From a virus, in the IMG/VR virus record IMGVR_UViG_3300036770_002726, positions 1-64,000 of that record: DNA of 64,000 nt. One strand, given 5' to 3'. The number at the start of each line of letters is the position of its first letter. Within the stretch, counting starts at the first letter, position 1. Positions 9,194 to 59,040 of the stretch are shown in pieces. The position numbers and the translations under genes are program-made. The notes under the pieces were generated by a model that had not been told where the DNA came from, made no database searches, and saw nothing but the letters and a program-made list of their open reading frames with translations.

Positions 9194-9444
9194 GCAGTCA
9201 ATACCGAAAAATAAAATATGAATCAGAGGGACCATATGGTTCAGTTGAAGAAAAATACTTATACATTCATTCACATAGTACGGTAGATGTGTATAACATT
9301 TATGATAATAATGGTGAACATCTATTTTCTTTTTCAGAAACTGGATTTGATATGGGTAGTGCCTTAGCTGTTGCCTTTACAAATTGGCAAGACCCAAGAA
9401 TGGAAATAGTTTCTCATAACGAATGGAAAAATAAAATAAAATGA
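9190..9444 (+). CDS. Hypothetical protein coupled to thymidylate synthase
   Basis: An 84-residue protein (MSSQYRKIKYESEGPYGSVE), mostly beta in appearance with many Tyr, Ser and His residues. It overlaps the thymidylate synthase gene by ATGA, so the two are likely co-translated. No family recognised. Confidence 0.65.
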   Translation: MSSQYRKIKYESEGPYGSVEEKYLYIHSHSTVDVYNIYDNNGEHLFSFSETGFDMGSALAVAFTNWQDPRMEIVSHNEWKNKIK

Positions 9445-10523
9445 ACAAACTAGATAAAGATTACCAAGCACTCCTACAAGACATACTTGATAATGGAGTA
9501 ACAAAAGAAACAAGAAATGGAGGAACTATCTCAGTATTCGGTAGACAAATTCGTCATCGAATGAGTGATGGATTTCCATTATTAACTACCAAAAAAATGT
9601 ATTTTAAAGGTATTGTAACCGAACTCCTTTGGTTTTTAAGGGGTGATACAAATATCAAATACCTTGTTGATAATGGCTGTCATATTTGGGATGGGGATGC
9701 GTTTAAATCATTTAAAAGTAAACAATACCCTCATTCATCTGGATTGAATGAGTTTGAAATGGAAGACTTTATCATTGCTATAAAAAATGGACATTATAAA
9801 GAGTATAATCTCGGTGAATTAGGTCCCATCTATGGTAAGCAATGGAGAAGTTGGAATAAAAAGAAAATGTATCTATCGACAGATGGTTCATACGAAAACA
9901 TTTATGATGAGGCTGACCAAACAGTTATAGACCAAATCGCAAACCTAATCAACGACCTTAAAACAAATCCTGATTCAAGACGTAATAAAGTTTCAGCTTG
10001 GAATGTTGGAGAACTTGAAGAAATGACACTTCCACCATGTCATACAGATTTTCAAGTTTATACAAGAGAGTTGAGTTTGGAAGAGAGGAGAAAATTAGCA
10101 AATCACGATTCAGAATTTATTTCACCAATCACAGTAGAATCTTGGGATAGAGCTAATATCCCAATACGAGCAATCTCTTTAATGTGGAACCAACGTTCAG
10201 TAGATACACCACTTGGATTACCATTCAACATAGCCTCTTACGGACTACTATTAACAATAATTGGTAAGATGGTTAATATGGTTCCAGATGAACTTATATG
10301 GAATTTGGGAGATACACATATCTACTTAAATCAAGTTGATGGTGTTAAAGAACAATTAACAAGAGAACCATATCCCCTACCAACATTAAAGATTAATTCA
10401 GGTAATGAGAATTGGCATTTGTTAGAGTTAGATGAAGTATTGAATACATTAGACCCAGACATTACATTCAAGGTTGAAAACTATCAATCACACCCTAAAA
10501 TATATTTTCCATTGTCAAATTAA
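9441..10523 (+). CDS. thyA: Thymidylate synthase (ThyA type) with in-frame insertions
   Basis: Converts dUMP to dTMP using methylene-tetrahydrofolate. Hallmarks are LLTTKKMYFKGIVTELLWFLRG, LGPIYGKQWRSW, DPDSRR-like NPDSRRNKVSAWN, the catalytic LPPCHTDFQVYT (Cys200), NQRSVDTPLGLPFNIASYG and GDTHIYLNQVD. At 360 residues it is about 95 longer than E. coli ThyA. Extra segments lie around residues 95-120, around 140-160, and at 209-245. The last insertion follows the active-site Cys strand and reads RELSLEERRKL...NIPIRAISL, which matches the C-terminal block of the small paralogs at 6289-7835. Residues around the insertion keep the normal enzyme pattern, so activity is likely. Confidence 0.95.
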   Translation: MNKLDKDYQALLQDILDNGVTKETRNGGTISVFGRQIRHRMSDGFPLLTTKKMYFKGIVTELLWFLRGDTNIKYLVDNGCHIWDGDAFKSFKSKQYPHSSGLNEFEMEDFIIAIKNGHYKEYNLGELGPIYGKQWRSWNKKKMYLSTDGSYENIYDEADQTVIDQIANLINDLKTNPDSRRNKVSAWNVGELEEMTLPPCHTDFQVYTRELSLEERRKLANHDSEFISPITVESWDRANIPIRAISLMWNQRSVDTPLGLPFNIASYGLLLTIIGKMVNMVPDELIWNLGDTHIYLNQVDGVKEQLTREPYPLPTLKINSGNENWHLLELDEVLNTLDPDITFKVENYQSHPKIYFPLSN

Positions 10524-13679: not shown

Positions 13680-13907
13680 ATGAAAACAGTAGAATTTAGA
13701 CAAGAAGATTTAGTTAATGTGAATGAATTAACTGAACAAAGAAACGACAAAATTGAACATTTAGTTGAAGTTTTAAAAGTAAATGATAGTATAACAGAAA
13801 AGAAATCTTCTGAATTGCTACAAGATATTTTTAAAATTAATTCACAACTTAAATTAGAAGAAGATAAACTAATTGTTAAAACACTAACTGACAACGGAGC
13901 AATGTAA
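13680..13907 (+). CDS. Small helical hypothetical protein
   Basis: A 75-residue acidic helical protein (MKTVEFRQEDLVNVNELTEQ), probably a coiled coil between residues 15 and 60. Function unknown. Confidence 0.6.
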   Translation: MKTVEFRQEDLVNVNELTEQRNDKIEHLVEVLKVNDSITEKKSSELLQDIFKINSQLKLEEDKLIVKTLTDNGAM

Positions 13908-13924
13908 TATTGTGTTTATTTGTT

Positions 13925-13990
13925 GTTATGTTTAACGAAGTGTAGTTGTGAGGAACGAACAATTAAACATAACTAAAATATATACACACC
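13925..13990. repeat. 11-bp inverted repeat followed by TAAAATATATACACACCTC
   Basis: GTTATGTTTAA (13925-13935) and TTAAACATAAC (13963-13973) are perfect complements around 27 nt with no gene. The right end runs into TAAAATATATACACACCTCAA, close to the element after 13391. It looks like an empty version of the 4801-5035 module. It lies in the leader of the Rad50-like gene and might instead act as a regulatory hairpin. Confidence 0.45.
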
Positions 13991-14030
13991 TCAAAACAAC
14001 TCACCCCCAAAATCAATTAAAAAATTCACA

Positions 14031-16400
14031 ATGGATTTATTCAATCCACCAATAGAATACAATTACAATTATATGATTAAAGATATAGATTTTACCAAGT
14101 TTGATAATCCATACATCCAGGTAATATGGGAAGATTATGCTGAAAACTTTACACAAGAAAAAATAAAGAGCATCAAACATTACTTCCAAAAAAAATACAA
14201 TTCAACCAATGTTAATGTAATTACCAAAACAAAAATATCAGAAACAACCAATCACTCGGTTGATGTTTCCTTTAATATCTTGGATAAAAATTATCAATAT
14301 GAATTGGTAAAATCATATCTCGATTCCAAAAATCAAAATCAATTATCGGATGAAATCTTTAATCTAGATAGAATTGTTGATAATAGATTATTGACAGATG
14401 AAGATATTACCCCATTCAAAAAATGGTATATCAAAAATATTGAATTCTCCAATTTCTTATCTTATGGACAAAATCAAAAAATAGATTTTGAAAAATGTAA
14501 TGGAATATCGGTTGTTGAATCAGACCCACCAAATTTTGGTGGAAAGACAGTTTTAACCGTTGACCTATTGTTATTCCTATTCTTCAATGAAACCACCAAG
14601 ACAACAAAAGCTGAAGAAATCTTTAATAGATTCTCAACTCAAGATAAAGTCCACGTAAAAGGTGAAATTATCATTGATGGGGATGAATATGTTATCATTA
14701 GAAACATTGAAAGAAAGAAGAAGAAAGATGATACCTGGAATGTAAAAACCGAATTGGATTTTTATAAGAAATTATCCGATGGGTCATTACAAAACTTCAC
14801 TGGTGAACAAAGGAGAGAAACAGAGAATTTCATCAAAACATCAATTGGAACAAAAGATGATTTCTTGATGACAATCTTAACAACAGCAACAAATCTTGAA
14901 GATTTGATTGACTCCAAACCAACAGCAAGAGGTCAAGTATTATCAAAATTTATGGGGTTGGACTTTCTCAAAAAGAAAGAAGAACTTGCAAAAGAAATAT
15001 ATTCTGACTTCTCAAAATCAATGTTGTCAAATGTATATTCTAGTGAGAAATTGAAATCAGATAATGATGGTTATAATTCAAGAATCCAAGAATTAACCAC
15101 AGATAATATAACCCAACAAAACAATCTTATTGATGTTCAAAACAGAATAATCAAAGGACAAGAATATAGAGATGGATTATTAAAATCCAAACACACGGAT
15201 ATTGATGTTGAAATCTCAAATATTGTTCCTGAACGTGTTGAAAGTGAAATCATCGGAATAAAAACCCAAAAACAAAGTGTTGAAAGACAATTAAAAGAAC
15301 TTAAAGTAGTTGAACCTACAGAGTTTTACTCGGAACAAGAACACGATTGGATAAAAGATGAACACAAACTATACTACAAAAAGATTGTTCAAGTTGAACA
15401 AACAATCAATTCGATTGAAGAACTAAAGTCTTCAGTTGATGGGGGAATTAAATGTGAACATTGTGGAATTGAATTAATAACCGCATCAATAACTCAAAAC
15501 AAGATAGCAGAACTTGACTATTATAATAGTCAAAAAGTCGAATTTGAGGGGTTAATGTCTAATATAATAGACAGAGAAGCTAAGTATGTTCTATTGAAAA
15601 AAGAATTTGATGAGTATGAGAAAAACAAACTTATCAAAGAAAAATATGAGCTTACAATTGAGGGTTATGAGATGAAAATCAAAGGGTTGGAAGATAAGTT
15701 GGAAAAATTCAATTTGTTACAGGATAAAATATCCACCAATAACAAAATTGAAACCCAACTTATCAAAGCCAATCTGAGAATTGATGAATTGGATAGGGAA
15801 AAAGTATCTGTACAAAGAATCATTGATTCTAACAATTATCAAATTGAAAGTCTGAAAGATAAGATTAAAGATAATCTTCAAAAGATTGAAAAAATTAAGG
15901 AAGAATCTGAAAAAGAAAAAATATATAAGTTATATTTGGAAATCTTTGGAAAGAATGGAATATCTAAGACAATAATGAAAACAATGATTCCAATGTTGAA
16001 TTCTGAGTTACAGAGGTTGTTGGAAGATAGTTGTCATTTTAGATTGGAGATTAATATTAATGATAAGAATGAGGTTGAATTTTTAATGATTGATAATAAT
16101 ACCCAAGTTGAGAAACTTATGTCATCAGGATCGGGTTATGAGAGAACCATAGCATCATTAGCATTGAGAGCGGTGTTGAGTAAGATTAGTTCATTACCAA
16201 AACCTAATATCATAGTGTTTGACGAGGTGTTTGGAAAGATATCAAATGAGAATTTGGATATGGTTGGTGAATTTTTTATTAAAATCAAGAACTATTTTGA
16301 AAAGATATTCGTTATTACCCATAATCCACTTGTAAGTAATTGGGCGGACAATGTGGTTAAAATATCTAAAGAAAACAATATTAGTAACGTAAAACAATAA
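14031..16400 (+). CDS. sbcC: SbcC/Rad50-like ATPase (T4 gp46 type)
   Basis: The 789-residue SMC-like protein starts with a specific N-terminal region of about 140 residues, then WYIKNIEFSNFLSYGQNQKI (the typical Rad50 entry strand). Next come a P-loop at about residues 165-173 and two coiled-coil arms around the zinc hook CEHCG near residue 474. The signature region is SSGSGYERTIASLALR, followed by Walker B IIVFDEVFG and the His switch VITHN. It should work with the SbcD/gp47-like nuclease at 371. The P-loop is PPNFGGKT, so its first Gly is replaced by Pro, and the signature reads SGSGYE instead of SGGE. The extended N-terminus is also unusual. Confidence 0.9.
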   Translation: MDLFNPPIEYNYNYMIKDIDFTKFDNPYIQVIWEDYAENFTQEKIKSIKHYFQKKYNSTNVNVITKTKISETTNHSVDVSFNILDKNYQYELVKSYLDSKNQNQLSDEIFNLDRIVDNRLLTDEDITPFKKWYIKNIEFSNFLSYGQNQKIDFEKCNGISVVESDPPNFGGKTVLTVDLLLFLFFNETTKTTKAEEIFNRFSTQDKVHVKGEIIIDGDEYVIIRNIERKKKKDDTWNVKTELDFYKKLSDGSLQNFTGEQRRETENFIKTSIGTKDDFLMTILTTATNLEDLIDSKPTARGQVLSKFMGLDFLKKKEELAKEIYSDFSKSMLSNVYSSEKLKSDNDGYNSRIQELTTDNITQQNNLIDVQNRIIKGQEYRDGLLKSKHTDIDVEISNIVPERVESEIIGIKTQKQSVERQLKELKVVEPTEFYSEQEHDWIKDEHKLYYKKIVQVEQTINSIEELKSSVDGGIKCEHCGIELITASITQNKIAELDYYNSQKVEFEGLMSNIIDREAKYVLLKKEFDEYEKNKLIKEKYELTIEGYEMKIKGLEDKLEKFNLLQDKISTNNKIETQLIKANLRIDELDREKVSVQRIIDSNNYQIESLKDKIKDNLQKIEKIKEESEKEKIYKLYLEIFGKNGISKTIMKTMIPMLNSELQRLLEDSCHFRLEININDKNEVEFLMIDNNTQVEKLMSSGSGYERTIASLALRAVLSKISSLPKPNIIVFDEVFGKISNENLDMVGEFFIKIKNYFEKIFVITHNPLVSNWADNVVKISKENNISNVKQ

Positions 16401-23329: not shown

Positions 23330-24123
23330 TGGATACTATATCAAAAAATTTAAAAAATTCTTTGGATAAAGAATTCAGTAATTTACTAGGTCAATTCCCA
23401 GAAAGCGGAGGTGATGTTATGACGAATTATCAGAATATAAAAAAAGAACTCCCAGAAATGAAAAAAACATTTAAAAAATCGGAGATTACAGATTTAATAG
23501 GTAAAAAAAGTATGAATTTACCAATAGGTAAATTATATTCAATTGGTAAAACACCAAAAACCGAGAATAATAAATCATCAAATGTGATGACTAAAAAAGA
23601 TATGATGGAAAAATGGAGTCAAAAATATAAAGATTCTATTGATTGTAACAATCCAAAAGGTTTTAGTCAAAAAGCTCATTGTCAAGGTAAAAAGAAAAAA
23701 GAAACAAAAGAAGCAACTGCATCAGGTGCTGGTGGAGGTTTTATAGGTAAAGTAGCATTTGACCGTAATAGTGAATTTGTTAAAAGAAGTTTTGTTGAAA
23801 CACCAAGCAAAGGAGAATTTAAAGAAGGGGCATCTTCAGCATCGTCTGGTTCTTATGTCACACCTGCGGCTTGGGCTAAATCAACAAGTAAAAAGGATTG
23901 GAGAGGTAAAAGTAAAACACAAATACCTGGTGGACAATTCGTTCAGGTTAAGAAAAAATGTAAAAAATTTCCATATTGTAATCAAGGTGATATTAAGTCT
24001 TTAAATTTTACAAATGAAAGTAAACTTAATAAAATAATATCTGAACTAAGTCAAAAATATAACATAAGTAAAAATACAATTAAAAATATGGTTATCAAGG
24101 AGTATGTTAATAACACTAAATGA
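23329..24123 (+). CDS. Putative virion protein with CNNPKGFSQKAHC motif
   Basis: The 264-residue basic protein has DCNNPKGFSQKAHCQGKKK near residue 105. To my knowledge, similar CxNPKGFSQKAHC motifs occur in structural proteins of T4-like marine phages. It also has TPAAWAKSTSKKDWRGKSK and KKCKKFPYCNQGD, giving several Cys residues that could bind zinc. A Ser/Gly/Ala-rich segment lies between. There is no N-terminal tag. A late C-terminal FTNESKLNKIISELS resembles the tag of other genes. Confidence 0.65.
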   Translation: MDTISKNLKNSLDKEFSNLLGQFPESGGDVMTNYQNIKKELPEMKKTFKKSEITDLIGKKSMNLPIGKLYSIGKTPKTENNKSSNVMTKKDMMEKWSQKYKDSIDCNNPKGFSQKAHCQGKKKKETKEATASGAGGGFIGKVAFDRNSEFVKRSFVETPSKGEFKEGASSASSGSYVTPAAWAKSTSKKDWRGKSKTQIPGGQFVQVKKKCKKFPYCNQGDIKSLNFTNESKLNKIISELSQKYNISKNTIKNMVIKEYVNNTK

Positions 24124-24131
24124 TATTTATT
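24122..24131 (+). promoter_or_regulatory. TATTTAT late-type promoter motif
   Basis: TGATATTTATT, overlapping the previous stop, with the core at 24124-24130, 13 nt before ATG 24144. This supports the 24144 start. Confidence 0.5.
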
Positions 24132-24143
24132 AAAAAAAAAACA

Positions 24144-25682
24144 ATGAAAGACATAAAAAAACAATTAAGATATTTTTTATCTATTAATGAAACTTTGGAA
24201 AATAAAGCTGACCACCTTATAAATAAAATAAAGGAAATGGAAATGGGTGAAGCTTACGTTGATGATAATAGAACTCCGGGTGGTGATAATACACCTAATT
24301 TTGACTTTAAAAAATATAAAAGATTCTTATCCCAAAAACATAATAAGGGGGATATGGTAACATCTAAAAAAGAATTGAGAAAATATTTCCCATCTAAAGA
24401 CATAGAAGATGAAGATGAAGAAGGATTACAATTTATTGGCGAAGGTGAAATGTGTGAATGTGGTGGTATGATGAGAGAAGGTGAGTGTATGGAATGTGGA
24501 ATGATGAAAGAAGGTATTTACGATGTAGCTGGTAAATTTCCTAAAAAACAATCATTTGATTATATTGAAGAAGAGAAGGAAAAAAAAATAACTCCTTTTG
24601 AAGAAGCAAATTTGATAGAAGGATGTATAGAATCAACGAAACTTGCTGATAAATCTGGAGATAAAGCGTCAAGAATACACGCTGAAAATGAATGTAAATT
24701 AGCTATGGATGCTTTAGAAGAAAAAAATGATACTAAAAAAATTGAGGAGTTAAAAAGTTTTTTAAATGAAAGTAAAAATTTGGTTGGAAAACAATATAAA
24801 TTAGATAAAAACAAAAACAAAAGAGTTGACTCTGAAGATTTAAGACTTTTACGTAAAAGTAAAAAACGTAAATTTGAAGTTGATGAGGAAGAAATGGAAG
24901 AAGGTAACGAATTTTCTGGGGAATTAGAGAAAGCTAGAAAGGCTGGAAAAAAAACATTTAAAGTTGATGGAAAGACATATCCAGTAAAAGAATCTATTGA
25001 ATATCATATTGTAGATAGTGTAGGTGACATAATTAAACTAAATGAGAATGAGGTTATTGATTTGATTGAAAATATCGTTAATGAAGAAAAATTAAAATCA
25101 ATGGGTAAACATAAAGGATTAGCAACATATGACAAAGCTCACAAGGATTCTGGAAAAGAAAATGACGATTATATCAAATCAGTCACTAAAAAGATGAAAG
25201 ATTACTTAAAAGATGGGTCTAAAGGTGGTTATGATATGAATCCAAAAATGTTCCCACAGGGTAATGGTGAATTAGGAAAAATGAGTAAAAAAGCTTTCCA
25301 AATGACTGATGATTTAGAAGACTTTAATTATGAAATAGGAGGTCAACAATTTCCAATTCCTGATGAAATAGGTTATGATGAAAAAAGAATGGAGAAATAT
25401 TTTAAAGGAGATTCAACAACAGGTAATGCACCTGGTGGGAATGCTTTAGATTCAAAAGCTAATGAAAGATTTAATAAAATGAGAAAGAAAAATACTCTTA
25501 AAAAGATTAAAGACCAATCATATAAAAGGGTAAGTCAACCAGTTTTCAATGAAACATCAACAGATGAAGATGGTAAATTAAATCTTAAATTTGAAGCTAT
25601 AAATGAAAAAAAAATAAATCAGTTGAATGAAGAATTTGATAGAATGAGAGAATTATTAGGTTATAATAGAAAAACTCAGTAG
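24144..25682 (+). CDS. Large acidic tagged protein with Cys-rich motif
   Basis: A 512-residue protein. The N-terminus MKDIKKQLRYFLSINETLEN is basic and ends in I-N-E. Residues about 90-125 have an acidic run and then GEMCECGGMMREGECMECG, a four-Cys element that could bind zinc. Later parts contain YPVKESIEYHIVDSVGDI and the C-terminus FDRMRELLGYNRKTQ. It is strongly charged. The gene is part of the structural cluster. I prefer ATG 24144 because of the promoter position, although an in-frame ATG at 24120 exists. Confidence 0.7.
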   Translation: MKDIKKQLRYFLSINETLENKADHLINKIKEMEMGEAYVDDNRTPGGDNTPNFDFKKYKRFLSQKHNKGDMVTSKKELRKYFPSKDIEDEDEEGLQFIGEGEMCECGGMMREGECMECGMMKEGIYDVAGKFPKKQSFDYIEEEKEKKITPFEEANLIEGCIESTKLADKSGDKASRIHAENECKLAMDALEEKNDTKKIEELKSFLNESKNLVGKQYKLDKNKNKRVDSEDLRLLRKSKKRKFEVDEEEMEEGNEFSGELEKARKAGKKTFKVDGKTYPVKESIEYHIVDSVGDIIKLNENEVIDLIENIVNEEKLKSMGKHKGLATYDKAHKDSGKENDDYIKSVTKKMKDYLKDGSKGGYDMNPKMFPQGNGELGKMSKKAFQMTDDLEDFNYEIGGQQFPIPDEIGYDEKRMEKYFKGDSTTGNAPGGNALDSKANERFNKMRKKNTLKKIKDQSYKRVSQPVFNETSTDEDGKLNLKFEAINEKKINQLNEEFDRMRELLGYNRKTQ

Positions 25683-28016: not shown

Positions 28017-28949
28017 ATGGAAAACTATTACGAAATTCTAGGTGTAGATGAAAATACACCAATTGATGAAATTAAAAAAACGTATAGAAAATTAGCAATG
28101 GAACATCACCCAGATAAAGGTGGGGATGAAGAAAAATTTAAAAAAATATCTCAGGCTTACGAGATATTGGGTGACGAAAATAGACGTGCCAATTATGACA
28201 ATCAAAGAAAGAATCCTTTTGCTAATATGGGTGGAGGATTTAATCCATTTGAAGATATGTTCAATGAGTTTACAAATAGAGCTCACACTAGACAAACAGT
28301 ACCTGATAAAATAATTGATATCAATATTGGGGTTTTGGAAACATATAACTCAATGGAAAAAGAATTTGAATATGAACGAAATCATAATTGTGATTCTTGT
28401 AATGGATCTGGTGGAGAAAAAATTATTTGTAAACATTGTAATGGTTATGGTTTTATTGAAGGTAGAATCAGAACTGGTTTTTTTACTCAAATTGTCAGAC
28501 AAGGTTGCGATAAATGTAATGGTATTGGTCAGGTTTTTATATCAAAATGTAAAAAATGTAACACTAGTGGAGTACAATCAGTAAAAGAAAAAGTTAGAAT
28601 AAAAATTCCTCACAATATAAATGATGGACAATTTTTCAAAATGAGAGGAAAAGGTGATTATCACCAAGGAATCTTTGGTAATTTAATTTTGAGGGTTTTT
28701 GTAAAACCTCAAGACAACTTTGATAAAATTGGTAACGATTTAATATATGATGCTTTCTTCAATCTGGAAGACTTAAATAAAGAAACTTATGAAATTCCAC
28801 ACCCAAATGGTAAATTGTCAATTAAGTTACCAAACGAATTTGACACAACAAAACCCCTAAGAGTTCAATCCAAGGGGTTTAGAGATGATAACAATAACTT
28901 AAAGGGTGATTTGATAATAAATTTAAATGTTAGATTTACTAAAACATAG
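28017..28949 (+). CDS. dnaJ: DnaJ (Hsp40) co-chaperone
   Basis: This 310-residue full type I J-protein has a J domain at residues 1-70 with the HPD motif (MEHHPDKGGDEEKFKKISQA), and a Gly/Phe region around GGGFNPF. Four CxxCxxxG-type zinc repeats follow near residues 123-190 (CDSCNGSGG, CKHCNGYG, CDKCNGIGQ, CKKCNTSG). The last of these keeps CxxC but has lost the usual second Gly. The C-terminal substrate-binding domains end at the stop. It stimulates a DnaK ATPase, here presumably that of the host. It is shorter than E. coli DnaJ (376), and the C-terminal dimerisation part seems missing. Its 3' end overlaps a convergent small gene. Confidence 0.93.
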   Translation: MENYYEILGVDENTPIDEIKKTYRKLAMEHHPDKGGDEEKFKKISQAYEILGDENRRANYDNQRKNPFANMGGGFNPFEDMFNEFTNRAHTRQTVPDKIIDINIGVLETYNSMEKEFEYERNHNCDSCNGSGGEKIICKHCNGYGFIEGRIRTGFFTQIVRQGCDKCNGIGQVFISKCKKCNTSGVQSVKEKVRIKIPHNINDGQFFKMRGKGDYHQGIFGNLILRVFVKPQDNFDKIGNDLIYDAFFNLEDLNKETYEIPHPNGKLSIKLPNEFDTTKPLRVQSKGFRDDNNNLKGDLIINLNVRFTKT

Positions 28950-39356: not shown

Positions 39357-40058
39357 ATGAGAAAAAATAAATTAAAGTTTGTGATGGACACAGATTGGAT
39401 ATTTGATGGAGTCATAGACGCAGAACAGAAACAATATGTATTATTAGGTTATTTCCAAAAATTGAATAAACAATTGGAAGAGATGAAAGTCTATCCTATG
39501 TTTACTGAAATAACACTACATCTTGCAAATGTCCAAAACATCATCAAAAATAATAAAATATTATATACAGATAAGAAACTCACCAATTATGATGATGAGT
39601 TAACTTTTATTGATTTAAAAACAAAAGATTTACCCCCACTCAAAGTTACTGAATTAAACGAACTCAAAACTATATTACAATATAGTTTATCCAAACTCCA
39701 AGATTATTTTGATATTATCAAATCATTATGGACAGTTGTATATGATTCAATTGAAATTGTATCAATTCATAATGAAGATAATATTGGTTCTAAGAAAGGT
39801 TATTTCACTACCAAATCTAGTCAAAAAATTAAGATTTGGGAGTACAATATTAGAAAGTACAAGGGTTATGACAAGTTCAATATTGAGGAAAAACTTGAGG
39901 ATAATTTGTTAAAACATATTCATTCACCAGATAATACACTACCAGCATTTTATCTTCATTGTGAAAAAGACATACCGATGGAAGAAACTCTAATACCATT
40001 ATTCAAAAGAAAGGTTATGTCATATGTATTACAAACAAAAAATTTAGCGATAAGATAA
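39357..40058 (+). CDS. Hypothetical protein
   Basis: The 233-residue protein has KFVMDTDWIFDGVIDAEQKQ at the start and a Lys/Leu-rich helical body with LPPLKVTELNELKTILQYSL. It is preceded by TATTTTTG ending only 2 nt before the ATG. I remember similar proteins in large phages but know no function. Confidence 0.7.
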   Translation: MRKNKLKFVMDTDWIFDGVIDAEQKQYVLLGYFQKLNKQLEEMKVYPMFTEITLHLANVQNIIKNNKILYTDKKLTNYDDELTFIDLKTKDLPPLKVTELNELKTILQYSLSKLQDYFDIIKSLWTVVYDSIEIVSIHNEDNIGSKKGYFTTKSSQKIKIWEYNIRKYKGYDKFNIEEKLEDNLLKHIHSPDNTLPAFYLHCEKDIPMEETLIPLFKRKVMSYVLQTKNLAIR

Positions 40059-40100
40059 TTTGATTAGTAAAAATAAATTTTATATATTTTTTTTAAAAAA

Positions 40101-50104: not shown

Positions 50105-50254
50105 AATTGTTTTTTTAAATTTGTTTTTTAATTATTTTCTATACCAATATATACACATCAATCCTCCAGAAAACAATGACCTTAAAAGGGGTGTTTTATG
50201 ACCTACATCAGTTTTGAATTATTTTTTAAATTTGAACATAAAGGTTGGATGTTT

Positions 50255-50264
50255 AATATTTATA
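50255..50264 (+). promoter_or_regulatory. TATTTAT late-type promoter motif
   Basis: TAATATTTATAG with the core at 50257-50263, 19 nt before ATG 50283. Confidence 0.55.
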
Positions 50265-50282
50265 GTTTATAGAAAAAATATT

Positions 50283-53200
50283 ATGTCATTAATTAATCAA
50301 AAGAAAATAATACAATTATTAAAGGAATATAATGATAATTTTGGATTGTTGAATGAATCCAAGAAGGAAATCCTAATGAACAAATTTGGATTAAAAGAGG
50401 ATGTTGCAAAAGTATTTGATGAAATAGGAAAAAAACTATCTATTTGGTTAGTTAGAGATGTTTACTTACGACATTACATTAATAAAGCTAAAACTTTAAC
50501 TAGAGAAAAAGTACCTGAAGAAGTTTTTGAAACTTGGGCTAAAACTCAATTAAATCAAGAACCAATTAATTCATTGACTCAAGTATTGTCAAGAATTATG
50601 GATTATATTATACGTGAGTTAGGTGGAAATAAATCTTCATTAGATAATTTAACACTTACTGAAATTATTGGTAAAGCCGATGAATGGCATAGAAGTTTAA
50701 ATATAGGTAGTGGAAAAATAAATTATATTGAAAAAAATCCAATCATAATTGATTTTAGAGATGAAGATGGTAATGGATATTATTGGGTTGATTTAAGAAC
50801 TAAAGACTCCAAAGAAGAATGTGAGAGAATGGGTCATTGTGGAAGAAGTAGTTTAGGTAGTTTATATTCATTAAGAAGTTATCAACAAAATGGAAAATAC
50901 AAGGTTAATAAAAGCCATTTAACCGCATCAATTGGTGATAATGGAAAATTATATCAATTAAAAGGTCCAAAAAATTCAAAACCAAGTGAAAAATATCATA
51001 GATATATTTTACCATTATTTGATGTTAAAGATGAGGATGATGAATATTTGATTCAAGGGTTTGGAACAGAATACGCAACACAAGAGGATTTCAAATTGGA
51101 AGATTTACCAATGGAGACACTCAAAGATTTATATAGGGTAAGACCTAAAATATTCAAATCAAGAACATTACAAAGTAAAATGGCTGAATTTGGAATTGAA
51201 ATAGAAGTTGACCCATTACCAACAGATTTTGATATATCTATTCCATATGGGGAGATAACCAAATATATTCAAGGCGATGAATCTGGGTTTGATGTTGTCC
51301 GTAATTATTGGACTAAAACTATTTATTTATCTGAGATTATTTTGTCTGGTGATTATGAATCATTGGAAAATTATATTGACATTCACGGCAATATTTACGC
51401 TGAGGATATTTTGGAAAAATATGTTAGTGAGGAACTCAAAGATTATATGAGACAAATTATTATGCTTGAAGTTCCAATTGACGAAAAATTAAAATTCGAT
51501 CAAGCATCATTACCAGTATTAATTGAACACACTGAAGCAGGTAGTGATATTAGTACTGAAATATTTACAATATATAGGGAAGTATTAATTGAACCATTAT
51601 ATGAGGATTATTATCCAAGGTTAATTCAAACTCTTGAACATTATGGTTCAATCATCAATGATACGCGACACGAAGAAATTAAAATAATGGGTGACCTTAG
51701 TCAAATAGTTGATATAAATAATCCTAATATTATTGAAATTTATAATAAAGTTGAAGAGGATTTTGATGAGTTTTATATGGATAGTGTTGTTGATATGATA
51801 GTGAAATCTGACCTACTTGAAAAACCTATTTGGGAAAAACCTAGTGTAAGTGAAATAGAAATTAATGTTGAAATATTCAACAAGAGACTATATAGACAAT
51901 TGAATAAATTGGAACAAATAATTAAAAAAGATTCAATGAATGAAATTTATCATCAAAACAAGATTATAAAACTATTAAAAGAATATAACTCCAAACATAG
52001 TGATATTCTTACTGAGGCCAAATCAAAATTAGAAATACTAATTAACAAAACTGGATTAAAACCTGAAACAGCTCAAATGTTTGATTCAATTGCTGGTGGG
52101 TTATCTACTTTTTTTGCTAATAAAGTGATTGATAGTTTTCAAAAACTTACTAGTATGCCCAAAGAACGTGTGGCAAAAGAATTAAATCCAACGTCACAAT
52201 TAAGACAGGATTTAAATTCCATTATGGATTATTTTATTAATGGATTAAATAGAAATAAATCATCTTTGGTTAATTTAACTTTTGAACAAATTAAAGAGAA
52301 ATCCAAAGAATGGCACGATAGTTTAAATATTGGTGATAGTAAGATAAATTATATTGAAAACAATCCAATCCTAATTGATTTTAGAAATGAGAATGGTATA
52401 GGGTATTACTGGGCAGACCTACAAACGAATAATTCTACCGAAGAGTGTGAAAGGATGGGACATTGTGGAAGAAGTTCTTCAGGTAAATTATATTCATTAA
52501 GAAGTTATAGATTTACACCAGATGGAAAGTATAAGGTTAATGATAGTCATTTAACAGCATCAATAAGTAATGATGGGATAATATACCAATTAAAAGGACC
52601 TAAGAACTCAAAACCAAAAGAAGAATATCATAAATTCATTTTACCTTTATTTGATTTACAAGATAAATATGATGATTATTTCATCAAAGGATTTGGAACT
52701 GAATATGCCTCACAACAAGATTTCAAATTAGAAGATTTACCAATACAGACTCTCAAAGATTTGTATGAAATTAGACCTGAAATATTCAAATCAAGAGGGT
52801 TAAAAAGTAAAATGGCTGAATTGGGAATTGAAATAGAAGTTGAACCACTACCAACAGATTTTGATGTAGAAATAGAGTTTGAATATATAAATCATTATAT
52901 AGATAACGATGAAGTAATCCACACACGAAAACAAAGAACTAATTATGGGTCAAATTATACCGTGAATACATACTTATCTGAGGCTCTTTTTAATCCCAAC
53001 AAAATAGATGAATTAGATGAATGGATTGAAAGAGAATATTCATTACCTAGTTATGAACAACCATCATTAGAAAAAGTTTTAAAAGAAAATGTTTATGCTG
53101 GATTAAGGTCACATATTATAAGATTATTAAAAATGATGAAACCAACTGAAGAACAATTAAAACAATTGGAAGAAGTTGAGAAGATTACAGAATGGAGTTT

Positions 53201-53648
53201 ACAAATATCTAGACTAGCTCATTTAATGAGACAAATTGATAATGAAAAAATAATGATTATAAATGACATTTACGATTGTTATGATATTAGTTATATGTAT
53301 AGTATAAAAGATTCGGCAATTAGTAAATTAAAAGAATCTTTAATAACTACACTTGAAGGTTATGGTGGGGCTAGTGCTAATAAATATGGAATTTCAATAG
53401 AAGGTGATATTGGAGAACTTGTTGATATTGATGACCCAGAAGTTATTGAAGTATATGATAAAACAGAAGGATCCTATGGTGAATTATATACCTCCGATGT
53501 ATTCAGAGAATTAGTTGAAACAGACATTATATCAAGACCTTGGTGGAGAAGACCTGATATAGATGAAGTTGATATTGATAATGACCGATTTAATGAAGAA
53601 CTAAATGACAGATTAAATTATATTGAAAGATACCAATTATGGAATTAA
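50283..53648 (+). CDS. Two-copy fused PcfJ-like tagged protein
   Basis: The 1121-residue protein is an internal duplication. Copy 1 (about 1-551) has the tag KKIIQLLKEYNDNFGLLNES. Its core carries ERMGHCGRSSLGSLYSLRSY and KSHLTASIGDNGKLYQLKGP, then NSKP. Copy 2 (about 552-1121) begins at an internal Met (ATG 51936) with EIYHQNKIIKLLKEYNSKHS, then DILTEAK, and repeats CERMGHCGRSSSGKLYSLRS. The internal copy thus keeps its own tag. The core resembles the PcfJ-like domain, with Cys, strand, then a basic-aromatic strand. This looks like a fusion after loss of a stop codon. The next gene is a third copy. Activity unknown. Confidence 0.75.
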   Translation: MSLINQKKIIQLLKEYNDNFGLLNESKKEILMNKFGLKEDVAKVFDEIGKKLSIWLVRDVYLRHYINKAKTLTREKVPEEVFETWAKTQLNQEPINSLTQVLSRIMDYIIRELGGNKSSLDNLTLTEIIGKADEWHRSLNIGSGKINYIEKNPIIIDFRDEDGNGYYWVDLRTKDSKEECERMGHCGRSSLGSLYSLRSYQQNGKYKVNKSHLTASIGDNGKLYQLKGPKNSKPSEKYHRYILPLFDVKDEDDEYLIQGFGTEYATQEDFKLEDLPMETLKDLYRVRPKIFKSRTLQSKMAEFGIEIEVDPLPTDFDISIPYGEITKYIQGDESGFDVVRNYWTKTIYLSEIILSGDYESLENYIDIHGNIYAEDILEKYVSEELKDYMRQIIMLEVPIDEKLKFDQASLPVLIEHTEAGSDISTEIFTIYREVLIEPLYEDYYPRLIQTLEHYGSIINDTRHEEIKIMGDLSQIVDINNPNIIEIYNKVEEDFDEFYMDSVVDMIVKSDLLEKPIWEKPSVSEIEINVEIFNKRLYRQLNKLEQIIKKDSMNEIYHQNKIIKLLKEYNSKHSDILTEAKSKLEILINKTGLKPETAQMFDSIAGGLSTFFANKVIDSFQKLTSMPKERVAKELNPTSQLRQDLNSIMDYFINGLNRNKSSLVNLTFEQIKEKSKEWHDSLNIGDSKINYIENNPILIDFRNENGIGYYWADLQTNNSTEECERMGHCGRSSSGKLYSLRSYRFTPDGKYKVNDSHLTASISNDGIIYQLKGPKNSKPKEEYHKFILPLFDLQDKYDDYFIKGFGTEYASQQDFKLEDLPIQTLKDLYEIRPEIFKSRGLKSKMAELGIEIEVEPLPTDFDVEIEFEYINHYIDNDEVIHTRKQRTNYGSNYTVNTYLSEALFNPNKIDELDEWIEREYSLPSYEQPSLEKVLKENVYAGLRSHIIRLLKMMKPTEEQLKQLEEVEKITEWSLQISRLAHLMRQIDNEKIMIINDIYDCYDISYMYSIKDSAISKLKESLITTLEGYGGASANKYGISIEGDIGELVDIDDPEVIEVYDKTEGSYGELYTSDVFRELVETDIISRPWWRRPDIDEVDIDNDRFNEELNDRLNYIERYQLWN

Positions 53649-55285
53649 AAGAAAAATATTACCACAAAAAAATCCTAAATTTATTAAAGGAATATAATGA
53701 TAATTTTGGATTGTTGAATGAATCCAAAAAAGAAATCATAATGGATAAGTTGGGGATAAAAGAATCGTTAGCTCAAGTGTTTGATGAAGTTGGAAGAAAA
53801 TTATCTGTATGGTTGGCCAATAAGTTTCTTAAATATTATTATGACTTGGGAGCGAGTATAGCAGAACCTGATGTACCTAAAAAAGATTTAATAGAATTTG
53901 CAAAGAACAGACTTAATCAAGAACATAGCCCACACACTACTAGAATGGTTTTATCATCAATTATGGATTATATAATAGTTGGTCTAAATGGTAATAGAAG
54001 TAGTTTAGAAGATTTACCTATGTTTGAAATTAAAAGAGGTGAACCGAACATTTACAAGAAAGCTAAAGAATGGCACGATAGTTTAAATATTGGTAATGGT
54101 GCAATAAATTATATTGAAAATGCTCCAATCCTAATTGATTTTAGAAATGAAGATGGTGAAGGATATTATTGGGCTGACCTTAATGTTAAAAGTTCAACTG
54201 AAGAATGTGAAAGAATGGGACATTGTGGAAGAAGTTCATATGGTTATCTATATTCATTAAGAAGTGATAGAGTTTTACCTGGTGGAAAATATAAGTTAAA
54301 TAGAAGTCATTTAACTGCTGCTATTGATACTGATGGAATATTATATCAATTAAAAGGACCTAAGAACTCAAAACCAAAAGAAGAATATCACCAATATATT
54401 GAACCTTTATTTTATTATGAAGATGATGGAGATTATCTAATTAAAGGATTTGGAAGTGAATATGCTTCTAACCAAGATTTCAAGTTATCTGATTTACCTG
54501 ATGCAACAATTAGAAAAATATATAACGATAGACCTGAATTATTTAATACAAGAGGTTTAAAAAGAAAGTTGGGTGAGATGGGTATTATTGATGTTGAACC
54601 TCCCCAAACAAAATTTGTTTTGGAACTATCACCAAATGAGCTTGGAACATATTTGCAAGATGATACTTATTCAACTCGTAGATATAAAAATAGAGAGGGT
54701 AAAGAGATAGTTAGAAGAGAAAGTTGGTATGAAAAAATAATGTCTGATGATATTTGGGAATCAGTTTGGGATACAGACTTTGGATATGATTGGAAGTCAA
54801 TATTTTATATTGTAAATCCTGAAAACGAAAAATTAATTGGGTCAATTATTGACGAATGGATTAGTAAGATTGGTGATGAAGTTGATGAAGATATGTCTTT
54901 GGAAGACAAAATAGAAGAATATGATAATAACTATGATATCCGTAATGCTATCACTAATGCAGCAAATGATGTTGGAATAAATGAATATATTGATTATTTA
55001 AGAGACACCTTAAAATCAGCTTTAGAAGAATATGGAAATGTTATTGAATTCAGTAATGAAACAATTAAAATACAAATTGATTTGAAAGATTATACTAGTA
55101 GGATGGATGAGGACACTCTTGATGAATATTATGAGAATTGTTATGATAATCCTAGTTGTGTATTTAATGAATTATTAAGCGAAGGAAATATTGATATACC
55201 AAAACCAAGATTCAGAGACTTTGATCCTGATATAAATAAAAATGATTATAATGAAAATTTAATGGGTAGATTAAACGAAATATAA
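53639..55285 (+). CDS. Third copy of the PcfJ-like tagged protein
   Basis: The 548-residue protein starts MELKEKYYHKKILNLLKEYN, then DNFGLLNESKKE. Its core has CERMGHCGRSSYGYLYSLRS and LTAAIDTDGILYQLKGPKNS, and an acidic C-terminus. It is a paralog of each half of the preceding gene and overlaps it by 10 nt. The DNA of the tag region is nearly the same as in copy 1 (AATATAATGATAATTTTGGA), which points to recent duplication. Confidence 0.75.
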   Translation: MELKEKYYHKKILNLLKEYNDNFGLLNESKKEIIMDKLGIKESLAQVFDEVGRKLSVWLANKFLKYYYDLGASIAEPDVPKKDLIEFAKNRLNQEHSPHTTRMVLSSIMDYIIVGLNGNRSSLEDLPMFEIKRGEPNIYKKAKEWHDSLNIGNGAINYIENAPILIDFRNEDGEGYYWADLNVKSSTEECERMGHCGRSSYGYLYSLRSDRVLPGGKYKLNRSHLTAAIDTDGILYQLKGPKNSKPKEEYHQYIEPLFYYEDDGDYLIKGFGSEYASNQDFKLSDLPDATIRKIYNDRPELFNTRGLKRKLGEMGIIDVEPPQTKFVLELSPNELGTYLQDDTYSTRRYKNREGKEIVRRESWYEKIMSDDIWESVWDTDFGYDWKSIFYIVNPENEKLIGSIIDEWISKIGDEVDEDMSLEDKIEEYDNNYDIRNAITNAANDVGINEYIDYLRDTLKSALEEYGNVIEFSNETIKIQIDLKDYTSRMDEDTLDEYYENCYDNPSCVFNELLSEGNIDIPKPRFRDFDPDINKNDYNENLMGRLNEI

Positions 55286-55286
55286 T

Positions 55287-56132
55287 ATGAAAATAATAAT
55301 AACAGAAAGTCAGTATAAAATACTTAATGAACAATTAGGTAATTTCGGTGATATAAGAAATGTAAAGAAATTACGAAAAGATTGGAAAACTGATGTTCTA
55401 TCAAATACAGAAAGAGGTATTAAAAAAATAAAACAAGGACTTGATGGAGCAGACATCAAAGATATTGTTAATGACTTATCAAAAAAATTTGGAATTAATA
55501 AAATTTCATATGCTGGTAGAGGATATTATGGTATTGCATTTGTAGCTGATGGTACAAAAATATTGAAACTCACCCAAGACGAAGATGAAATAAAAGGAAT
55601 TGAAAAAATAGTAGGAAAAGAAATACCTGGTATTGTAAATTATTATGATTATGAATATTATCCTGAATATAACATTTATGGTATTCTAATGGATAAAGCA
55701 AAACCAATTTCAAAAATAGAAAAAGACATTTACACAACAATGTTTTATATGGGTGCGAATTATTCTGACTCTGATTTTTGGGATGATTATGATGAAGAGT
55801 TTTTGGATAATTTGGTTGATAGATTGGAAAGTCCTGAACCTGAAGATGAAATCCCACCAATTGGTATTAGTGGTTATTATAGTAGTGATGAAGATGATGA
55901 GGAAGATGAAGAGTTTGATGATGAAGACGAGAGTAATTATTACATTCCAAAAAGGGAAAAACCAGTTTCGAGTGTAAATATTACCTATGATGAACTGATA
56001 GAGTATATAGAGAAATACAGAGAATTATTATTGAAGTTGGAAGCTAACGATATTGCAACAAAAGATTTACACGGAGAAAACATTGGACAAATAAATGGAG
56101 AACTAGTCCATTTTGATGTAATGGCATTTTAA
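55287..56132 (+). CDS. Kinase-like protein with tag and truncated C-lobe
   Basis: The 281-residue protein starts MKIIITESQYKILNEQLGNF, the tag ending L-N-E. A glycine loop AGRGYYGIAFVADGTKILKL lies at residues 76-95 with the Lys typical of VAIK. A middle part has a very acidic insertion (DEDDEEDEEFDDEDES). Near the end it reads IATKDLHGENIGQINGELVH with the HGxN catalytic-loop pattern (residues 258-275) and FDV at 276-278, where protein kinases have DFG. The chain ends only 3 residues later, so the usual rest of the C-lobe is missing. It could phosphorylate host proteins after injection, or act as a pseudokinase. Activity is inferred. Confidence 0.7.
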   Translation: MKIIITESQYKILNEQLGNFGDIRNVKKLRKDWKTDVLSNTERGIKKIKQGLDGADIKDIVNDLSKKFGINKISYAGRGYYGIAFVADGTKILKLTQDEDEIKGIEKIVGKEIPGIVNYYDYEYYPEYNIYGILMDKAKPISKIEKDIYTTMFYMGANYSDSDFWDDYDEEFLDNLVDRLESPEPEDEIPPIGISGYYSSDEDDEEDEEFDDEDESNYYIPKREKPVSSVNITYDELIEYIEKYRELLLKLEANDIATKDLHGENIGQINGELVHFDVMAF

Positions 56133-56183
56133 TAACTTAACAATAAGTTAATACAAAACATTTTACTATCTCAACTATTTTTC

Positions 56184-56191
56184 CTATTTAT
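56184..56191 (+). promoter_or_regulatory. TATTTAT motif before the TonB receptor gene
   Basis: CTATTTATG with the core at 56185-56191, 20 nt before ATG 56212. The flanking bases are less A/T-rich than in other copies. Confidence 0.4.
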
Positions 56192-56211
56192 GATTTGTCA
56201 AAACCATAAGT

Positions 56212-59040
56212 ATGAAAAATATCTTTCTAGTCCTATTACTCCTATTATCATTTAAATCCTTTTCACAATTTACAATCATTGGTAAAGTTGTTGATGAAAA
56301 CACAAAAGAACCATTAATTGGTGTTACAGTTATAATTAAAGAAACTTCAGTTGGAACAACAACAGACATTGAAGGTATATTCACAATAGACTCAGACAAA
56401 GACACTGTTACATTAGAGTTTTCATATGTCTCATATAAAAAAGAAATCCAAGAAGATATTGTATTGGTTGGTGAATTAACAACCATACCTGATATTTTAC
56501 TTAAAGAGGATGTATTAGAAATTGGTGAAGTTGTTATTACCGCAGACAGAATTGTTAAAAATGAAATTGGTTTGATTGATATGAAAATGAAATCAGTCAC
56601 AATGGTTGATGGTATTAGTTCTGAGAAAATGAAATCAACAGGTGATGGTAATGCTGTTGAAGCAAGTAAACGAGTCACAGGTGTATCAATAGATAATGGA
56701 AAATATGTATATGTTAGAGGATTGGGTGATAGATATTCAAAGACAATAATGAATGGAGTTGAAATACCAGGATTGGATCCTGATAGAAACTCACTCCAAA
56801 TGGATATATTCCCCACCAATTTATTAAATAATATTGTCGTATCAAAAAGTTTTACATCAGAATTACCAGCAGATTTTACTGGTGGATTAATTAATATTGA
56901 AACAAAAGATATACCTGAAACACCACAAGGTTCATTCTCACTAACAATTGGTTTCAATAATCAAACCCACTTCAATAATAATTTCTTTAGTGAGAAAGGA
57001 AGTATGACTGACATATTAGGATTTGATGGTGGAATAAGAAGATTACCAAATGAACTAAGAAGTATTTATATCCCAACCCCATTTAATAAACCATCAAGTA
57101 TAAGTTCAGCACAACATCAACAGAATATTGTTAATACATTAAGAAGTTTGAATCCTGAATTGGGTGGTGTAAATGGTATGCCATTCTTGGATTTTGGTGG
57201 TGGATTTTCTTATGGAAGAACAAATAAAAAGTTTGGTTATGTTGTATCATTAAATCAAAAAACAGATTATAGATTTTATACTGATGTAAAGTATGGTGAA
57301 TACCAAAGGGTAACTGATAACTCACAATATGATTTGATTTATGCAACAAAACAATCAGGTCAATTAACTGAAATTAATAATCTATTGGGTGGTTTAATTG
57401 GATTCAATTTTGTTAAAGGTAAGAGTAAATACAAATTAAATCTAATTCATTTACAGAGTGGTGAGAGTAGAGCTGGTAAGTTCAATATATCAAACAATTC
57501 ATCAGCGGTTGGACAATCAGGTTATGAAGCAACATCATATAATCTTGAATACAATCAAAGAGGATTAACCAATTTGTTATTAAATGGAAAACATAAAATA
57601 AATAAATGGAATATTGATTGGAAATTGTCCCCAACTTATTCATCATCAATTGACCCTGACATTAGAAAGACACCATTTAGTTATGATGGTTCATATTCAT
57701 TTTCATCTGGTGAAGCGGGAAATCCATCAAGGATATGGAGAAACTTGGGTGAATTTAATAACCAATCAAAGATTGATATAAATAAAGAATATGAAAACTT
57801 CAAATTAAACTTTGGGTTATCTCACGTATATAAATTGAGAAACTATGAAATCAAGTTATTTGAATTGATGTTTTCAAAACCACAATCTTGGGCATCACCA
57901 AACCCCAACCTTGTAATGAATACTGATAACTTATATCCATCTGATGTCAATGGAACTTATATTCAATCTGGTAATGTGAATCCAAATCCAAATCAATATT
58001 CATCAAATGTTAATAATCTTGGTGTATATGTTTCAGGTGATTATAACATTAAGAATAAGTTAAAGATTAATTTGGGTTTAAGAACTGAATACTTTATTCA
58101 AAGACATACAGGAAGAGATATAAGATATGCCAATGGTGATGTGAATGGAAACAATTTGGTTAATGATAAAGTTATGGAAACCATAAATCTATTCCCATCA
58201 ACAAATATCATATATTCAATAACACCAAAACAAAATCTAAGAACATCATATTCAAGAACCATTGCAAGACCATCATTCAAGGAACTATCTTATGCTCAAA
58301 TATTAGACCCAATCACAAATAGAATATTCAATGGCGGTTTATTCACTTATAATGGAACTTGGGGTGGAAATTTGAAATCAACAAATATTGATAACTTGGA
58401 TTTAAGATGGGAGTTATCAAATAAAAATGATTTCTATTCAATATCTGGGTTTTATAAACATTTCAATAATCCAATTGAACTTGTTAGAATACCTGAACAA
58501 CAAACATCAACTGAATATCAACCAAGAAATGTTGGTAATGGTGATGTGTATGGATTGGAATTTGAGTTAAGAAAATCGTTTCTAAAGAACTTTTATTTCA
58601 ATACCAATGTCACACTAGTTAAGTCACAAATAACGATGACAGAGACAGAATATCAAGCAAGAAAACAATATGAGAGATTGAATGAGAACATAGACAATAC
58701 AAGAGTTATGGCAGGACAATCACCATTTGTAATCAATACTGGATTATCTTATAAGAACGATAAAATTGGGTTGAATGTTGGGTTGTTTTATAATGTAAAA
58801 GGACAAACATTATCCATTGTTGGAACTGGTTTATCTCCTGATGTTTATGATGAATCATTCCATTCATTGAATCTTTCAGTGAGTCAAAAGATTAAGAATA
58901 CATCAATTGATTTTAGAGTTCAAAATATTCTTAATGATAGAGTTGAAAGTTTTTATCACTCCTATAAAGCTAAGAAACAAGTATTCAATAGTGTTAATCC
59001 TGGTGTGACTTTAACATTGGGTGTTAGTCATAAGTTCTAA
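56212..59040 (+). CDS. TonB-dependent outer-membrane receptor
   Basis: The 942-residue, apparently full-length protein has a signal peptide (MKNIFLVLLLLLSFKSFSQ). A carboxypeptidase-regulatory-like domain follows (residues 20-105; GKVVDENTKEPLIGVTVIIK), then a plug domain (about 115-230; VYVRGLGDRYSKTIMNGVEI, PGLDPDRNSLQMDIFPTNLL). A beta barrel runs to the C-terminus VNPGVTLTLGVSHKF with a terminal Phe. In Bacteroidota such receptors import bulky ligands. It is the outer-membrane-receptor class used by many phages to enter, so a phage copy could block or change receptors after infection, or be acquired host DNA. No SusD partner is nearby. Codon use looks like its phage neighbours. Confidence 0.92.
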   Translation: MKNIFLVLLLLLSFKSFSQFTIIGKVVDENTKEPLIGVTVIIKETSVGTTTDIEGIFTIDSDKDTVTLEFSYVSYKKEIQEDIVLVGELTTIPDILLKEDVLEIGEVVITADRIVKNEIGLIDMKMKSVTMVDGISSEKMKSTGDGNAVEASKRVTGVSIDNGKYVYVRGLGDRYSKTIMNGVEIPGLDPDRNSLQMDIFPTNLLNNIVVSKSFTSELPADFTGGLINIETKDIPETPQGSFSLTIGFNNQTHFNNNFFSEKGSMTDILGFDGGIRRLPNELRSIYIPTPFNKPSSISSAQHQQNIVNTLRSLNPELGGVNGMPFLDFGGGFSYGRTNKKFGYVVSLNQKTDYRFYTDVKYGEYQRVTDNSQYDLIYATKQSGQLTEINNLLGGLIGFNFVKGKSKYKLNLIHLQSGESRAGKFNISNNSSAVGQSGYEATSYNLEYNQRGLTNLLLNGKHKINKWNIDWKLSPTYSSSIDPDIRKTPFSYDGSYSFSSGEAGNPSRIWRNLGEFNNQSKIDINKEYENFKLNFGLSHVYKLRNYEIKLFELMFSKPQSWASPNPNLVMNTDNLYPSDVNGTYIQSGNVNPNPNQYSSNVNNLGVYVSGDYNIKNKLKINLGLRTEYFIQRHTGRDIRYANGDVNGNNLVNDKVMETINLFPSTNIIYSITPKQNLRTSYSRTIARPSFKELSYAQILDPITNRIFNGGLFTYNGTWGGNLKSTNIDNLDLRWELSNKNDFYSISGFYKHFNNPIELVRIPEQQTSTEYQPRNVGNGDVYGLEFELRKSFLKNFYFNTNVTLVKSQITMTETEYQARKQYERLNENIDNTRVMAGQSPFVINTGLSYKNDKIGLNVGLFYNVKGQTLSIVGTGLSPDVYDESFHSLNLSVSQKIKNTSIDFRVQNILNDRVESFYHSYKAKKQVFNSVNPGVTLTLGVSHKF

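Follow-up and report, generated by a model that had tools for sequence, protein, structure and literature searches.

Why a phage should carry a full-length TonB-dependent receptor (TBDT) is the question raised by an open reading frame located at 56212..59040 (+ strand) of the stretch of DNA analysed here, a window of 64,000 nucleotides corresponding to positions 1-64,000 of the IMG/VR record IMGVR_UViG_3300036770_002726 (linear, 64,540 bp, fragment). An earlier note on this DNA had described the product as a complete 942-residue receptor equipped with a signal peptide, a regulatory domain, a plug, a barrel and a C-terminal Phe, a description which is borne out by the uninterrupted ORF of 942 aa and by Pfam. 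From the N-terminus onwards, the protein consists of a hydrophobic signal peptide, MKNIFLVLLLLLSFKSFSQ (56212..56268, +), recognized from the sequence itself, a CarboxypepD_reg-like domain (Pfam CarbopepD_reg_2, residues 23-109; 56278..56538, +), a plug domain (Pfam Plug, residues 127-221; 56590..56874, +) and a β-barrel region reaching the terminal Phe (57502..59037, +; Pfam TonB_dep_Rec, residues 431-906), all three Pfam matches being above cut-off. A putative TonB box, GEVVITA (residues 105-111; 56524..56544, +), assigned by its position and motif in the alignments, is common to the phage and the cellular receptors. The plug and barrel matches, which exceed the curated cut-offs, together with the signal peptide, the TonB-box-like motif and the terminal aromatic residue read in the sequence, identify the protein as a TBDT. 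In the alignment, the N-terminal start is kept in two loci of related phages (L002 and L006) and replaced by an equivalent one in a third (L003).

Structural prediction with AlphaFold gave a useless model from the single sequence (pLDDT 26.5) and a weak one from eight sequences (mean pLDDT 45.6), in which the domain of residues 23-109 is the best modelled part and long strands are predicted from about residue 240 on. Compared with the PDB, this weak eight-sequence model retrieved TBDTs or TBDT complexes, including the Llp-FhuA structure, for all 50 of the 50 top matches listed, with low TM-scores, and is accorded little weight. The nearest NCBIfam models, TIGR01782 and TIGR04056, are both generic and far below cut-off (65.7 bits for TIGR04056 vs a cut-off of 368), and no PHROGs family corresponds to the receptor.

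Since the source record is a linear fragment, the gene might be a passenger or an artefact, i.e., a functionless and recent capture of a host gene, a piece of a host island or the product of a chimeric assembly, the last two being the reservations expressed in the earlier note. Six other IMG/VR records, belonging to three phage lineages, carry the same receptor gene in the same position, with 97, 90 and 79-80% identity; four of the six represent one phage (99.95-100% identity in the parts compared), and the seven syntenic records were drawn from several metagenomes. As the earlier note had it, the receptor sits among phage genes: its flanking genes are syntenic with those of the sister phages at ~66-97% nucleotide identity, and its GC content (29.8%) is close to that of the window (28.8%). 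Exactly one TBDT plug is found per sister record, vs 17-21 in two Crocinitomicaceae genomes. Towards three sisters, the dN/dS values of the receptor are 0.085, 0.196 and 0.173, with dS up to 0.77, near or under the medians of the other genes of the phage, and purifying selection acts on the gene. Because the same gene holds the same place in six more records and is selectively maintained, it is neither a chimera nor part of a host island, and a functionless passenger is extremely improbable for a monophyletic set of copies of this depth. The receptor belongs to a genuine phage genome.

The larger sister phage exceeds 120 kb across two overlapping contigs, and a sister phage contig encodes a T4/cyanophage-like head protein. 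The protein set of the window and the sister phages contains a DNA primase, a sigma factor, endolysins and other phage families, and a thymidylate synthase is encoded at 9441-10523 of the window. DnaJ is encoded at 28017-28949, and members of the Hsp70, SmpB, PAS-domain and M54 peptidase families, together with a SprB-repeat protein, also occur in the phage protein set. Ahead of the receptor, a domain of ~540 aa devoid of any Pfam match is repeated three times in tandem over two ORFs (window 50214-55285; motif ECERMGHCGRSS), its copy number and order varying among the sister phages. The gene standing just before the receptor (window 55287-56132) codes for a 281-aa protein whose catalytic motif, KDLHGENIG, is kinase-like and whose N-terminus bears a TESQYK segment of a type found in other proteins of the phage; in L003, its place is taken by another gene. 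The latter locus, from sister phage G004, also encodes, a few genes before the TBDT, a secreted protein of 566 aa (L003:3093-4793) which carries a T9SS type A sorting domain and is apparently routed via the type IX secretion system of the host.

With respect to its origin, the receptor has full-length cellular orthologues in the Flavobacteriales, at 38-55% identity; the nearest named relatives belong to the Crocinitomicaceae, other genomes of the order reaching up to 55%. In most genomes with a match, one locus only is found at E<=1e-80, and cells hold some 20 TBDTs. The phylogeny against host receptors proposed in the earlier note groups the phage copies in a single clade (100/100) that joins a cellular clade made up of ten Pho-linked TBDTs (100/99). 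A position of the phage clade strictly within this "near" cellular clade is insecure, a position at its base fitting equally well. Immediately upstream of the orthologue, a gene for a lipoprotein of ~400 aa is present in 20 out of 20 cellular loci, in the neighbourhood of which are encoded a PhoB-like response regulator (Trans_reg_C; 10 loci), a PhoR-like histidine kinase (7), a Na/Pi cotransporter (Na_Pi_cotrans+PhoU; 5) and a phosphate-selective porin (Porin_O_P; 3). In locus L080, the gene order lipoprotein-TBDT-PhoR-PhoB-OprP is that of Fjoh_0542-0546, the PUSIV/PhoBR operon of Flavobacterium johnsoniae, where Pi depletion raises the TBDT by 8.0 and the lipoprotein by 9.9 log2 (PMC8115612); the Fjoh lipoprotein has been related in the same work to ElpS, a Pi-starvation lipoprotein of Caulobacter (PMC2996285). 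The family is of the PUSIV type on the basis of its gene order and domains, not of the Fjoh sequences. The phage receptor, which groups with the TBDTs of PhoBR-linked operons, qualifies as an orthologue of this Pi-starvation (PUSIV/PhoBR-operon) TBDT family of the Flavobacteriales.

A second link to the Pho regulon lies in front of the gene. A Pho-box-like tandem 11-bp repeat, AACTTAACAAT AAGTTAATACA (56134..56155, +), occurs 78 nt before the receptor ATG, just beyond the stop of the upstream gene. It was recognized with a motif derived from cellular promoters only, a tied 11-bp tandem repeat trained solely on 20 cellular lipoprotein promoters, which replaced an earlier untied Gibbs motif of 22 nt. 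The learned half-site, approximately [CG]TTAA[CT]AT[AT] and also given as CTTAACAnn, conforms to the consensus published for the Pho box, PyTTAAPyPyT/A (PMC10976474). Among 127,958 window positions the site ranks second, it comes first in four out of four re-trainings, and among the top 14 sites listed it alone stands before a gene. None of 40 control motifs built from other promoters matched this rank, the best of them placing the site 11th. When each cellular locus was left out in turn, its site ranked 1-6 in all 20, with a small leak because positions were not re-learned. Promoters on which the model had not been trained were marked for Na/Pi cotransporters (5/5) and for PhoB (7/12, some of the PhoB promoters sharing an intergenic region with the lipoprotein), vs 9% of other genes. 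The box is identical in the two nearest sister phages, and the 79%-identical sister phage has a weaker one, 76 nt upstream (rank 62 of 196,712). Cellular TBDTs mostly have no box of their own, being the second gene of an operon, and the lone phage gene has one. The TATTTAT motif reported in the earlier note 20 nt before the ATG was found at 56185-56191, as the beginning of a probable -7/-10 promoter element, TATTTATGATTTG (56185..56197, +), a conserved counterpart of which, TATTTATGATTCG, is present in the 79%-identical sister, equally distant from the Pho box. The site at 56134 may be regarded as a candidate box read by the PhoB of the host.

The absence of a SusD partner, pointed out in the earlier note, holds true for the records, since a SusD family match is missing from the window record and the sister records alike, but the true partner of the family is another lipoprotein, which sister phages do encode. 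This FII-like lipoprotein of 420 aa (G004 13767-15029; G003 23878-25140), ~60% identical to the cellular forms, lies ~16-25 kb away from the TBDT in the sister phages and is present in 35 IMG/VR loci altogether; it is without match in Pfam, NCBIfam and PDB sequence searches. In all members of the phage clade scanned, a box of the AACTTA[AG]CAAT type (AACTTA[AG]CAAT AAGGTAATATT) is located 88-89 nt upstream of the lipoprotein gene; as it shares sequence with the 3' end of the ORF before it, its conservation may be partly coding. The lipoprotein was not found in the window, where the receptor stands without the adjacent partner of PUSIV-type TBDTs. Synteny with the sister phages places the missing gene at 40059..40100 (+), next to a decayed Pho-box remnant, AATTTAGCGAT AAGATAATTTG (40041..40062, +), of the lost promoter, as judged against the intact box of the phages that keep the lipoprotein. 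On this comparison, the lineages of the window and of L006 have lost the lipoprotein at the syntenic site and their box has decayed. An apparent absence of the TBDT from lipoprotein contigs of 91 and 120 kb was dismissed, these contigs ending before the syntenic TBDT position. A grouping of the phage lipoprotein with the cellular lineage of the receptor is rejected (AU p = 0.003), so that both genes were probably acquired separately.

These data bear on the nature of the substrate. Uptake of another nutrient, e.g., an iron-siderophore complex, a vitamin or a carbohydrate through a SusC-like receptor, is performed by other TBDT families, has been the annotation given to earlier phage TBDTs (PMC9723777), and accords with the generic character of the nearest NCBIfam models. 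It nevertheless appears unlikely, taking into account that SusD is lacking and that Pho loci equipped with Pho boxes, rather than loci for iron or polysaccharides, harbour the orthologues. The SusC/carbohydrate version was rejected owing to the absence of SusD, the missed cut-off of TIGR04056 and the Pho neighbourhood.

The receptor could also serve in superinfection exclusion or as a decoy, a receptor copy displacing the host receptor or titrating incoming or newly released phages. TBDTs are frequent phage receptors, and FhuA is blocked by small phage proteins, e.g., Cor (PMC11436027). Like Cor and Llp, which act on FhuA, the present protein is a phage product concerned with an outer-membrane TBDT, but known exclusion factors of this kind are small blockers, not receptor copies. 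Between L006 and the window, dS reaches 1.25 within residues 236-430 vs ~0.15-0.27 in the rest of the gene, and this segment is recombinant, its allele having been exchanged with that of a diverged phage lineage; such swapping between phage lineages could reflect a change of antigenic type. The TonB box, plug and transport core, however, are conserved, although a decoy has no need of them, and purifying selection acts on the gene; nor would one expect a decoy to possess a promoter of the Pho type or to be accompanied by a Pho lipoprotein, so that we consider a role in exclusion quite doubtful. Of the three roles envisaged in the earlier note, nutrient import is retained and narrowed to phosphorus by the orthology, the candidate Pho box and the lipoprotein of the sister phages, whereas displacement or blocking of host receptors and exclusion found no positive evidence.

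The reading that we consider probable is that of a PhoB-driven, phosphorus-scavenging outer-membrane receptor acquired from a Flavobacteriales host, the acquisition being part of this same reading. In a phosphate-starved host, PhoR would phosphorylate PhoB, which would bind the tandem TTAACA-type box 78 nt upstream and cause the phage receptor to be transcribed during infection. The exported receptor would fold into the outer membrane, be powered through its TonB box by the TonB-ExbBD of the host, and import a phosphorus-containing compound, either an organic phosphate or a surface-bound P source. The inflow of phosphorus for phage DNA synthesis could be kept up in this way as host expression falls. 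In cells and most phages of the clade, the receptor would partner the FII-like surface lipoprotein, and the window phage presumably borrows that of its host after losing its own.

Other large phages show related arrangements. The TBDTs of the megaphages Mar_Mega_1 and LR745206 have already been reported and read as SusC-type carbohydrate uptake (PMC9723777), and they resemble the present receptor as TBDTs of large phages. The receptor of LR745206 is only ~26% identical and falls outside this TBDT clade, but a related lipoprotein is encoded directly upstream of it, the cassette (LR745206.1 77457-81261, i.e., L083:9833-12481 plus the lipoprotein ORF just upstream) being related to the Pho pair; a second plug match occurs in this genome at 138255-138581. 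In the phage-like record L125, a TBDT and a lipoprotein also lie side by side, with no clear box before the pair in a motif scan. The pairs of LR745206 and L125 indicate more than one origin of the lipoprotein-TBDT pair in phages. Two phage-like IMG/VR contigs, L121 and L124, carry the Pho lipoprotein with no TBDT on the contig and no recognisable box, so that the lipoprotein may act alone. A different TBDT (912 aa, 30% identical) is encoded at L091:8980-11718 (IMGVR_UViG_3300049893_000484), directly 3' of a DNA polymerase-like gene in a record that contains a T4-like replication module, and is preceded 135 nt upstream by a strong motif match (rank 5 of 41,214); this TBDT seems to have been acquired independently, perhaps from a different phylum. 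Evenly poised, in our estimation, is the broader proposal that large Bacteroidota phages have more than once put together, under the control of the host PhoB, a phosphorus-scavenging surface system of two parts (TBDT and Pho lipoprotein), which one clade drew from different bacterial lineages, and that the outer membrane of infected cells is thereby remade for mining environmental organic phosphorus to the benefit of the virus.

Bacteroidota are major degraders of organic matter, and phosphorus auxiliary genes are mainly a cyanophage matter, acting at or inside the inner membrane. Compared to the PUSIV/PhoBR-operon TBDT and its lipoprotein FII (Fjoh_0545/0546, PMC8115612), the phage receptor shares the CarboxypepD_reg-plug-barrel architecture, and its cellular orthologues the partner β-helix-like lipoprotein and the PhoB/PhoR/OprP neighbourhood; it differs in being phage-borne, away from the operon, under its own Pho box and, in the window, deprived of the lipoprotein. 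PhoBR-controlled phosphorus genes, e.g., pstS, are known from cyanophages (PMC10976474 and references therein), and the likeness extends to a phosphorus auxiliary gene in a T4-like phage with a Pho box for the host regulator. The cyanophage PstS is a periplasmic ABC binding protein, in contrast to the TonB-powered outer-membrane receptor of the present Bacteroidota phage, and PhoB binding was demonstrated by EMSA for several cyanophage promoters (PMC10976474), whereas for the receptor promoter we infer it. By analogy, the phage receptor is best explained as an outer-membrane counterpart of cyanophage pstS. The earlier note knew of no well-described phage system of this sort; this stands for phosphate-linked phage TBDTs, none of which appears in the literature searched, but not for the two megaphage TBDTs mentioned above. 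Within that literature, the association of a Pho-linked TBDT with a lipoprotein in Bacteroidota phages appears to be new. If the reading is correct, viruses beyond those of cyanobacteria would also read the phosphate sensor of their host and alter the cell surface for phosphorus, a specific reading would be available for the megaphage "SusC", and the substrate of the PUSIV receptor would become a testable question common to phage and cell.
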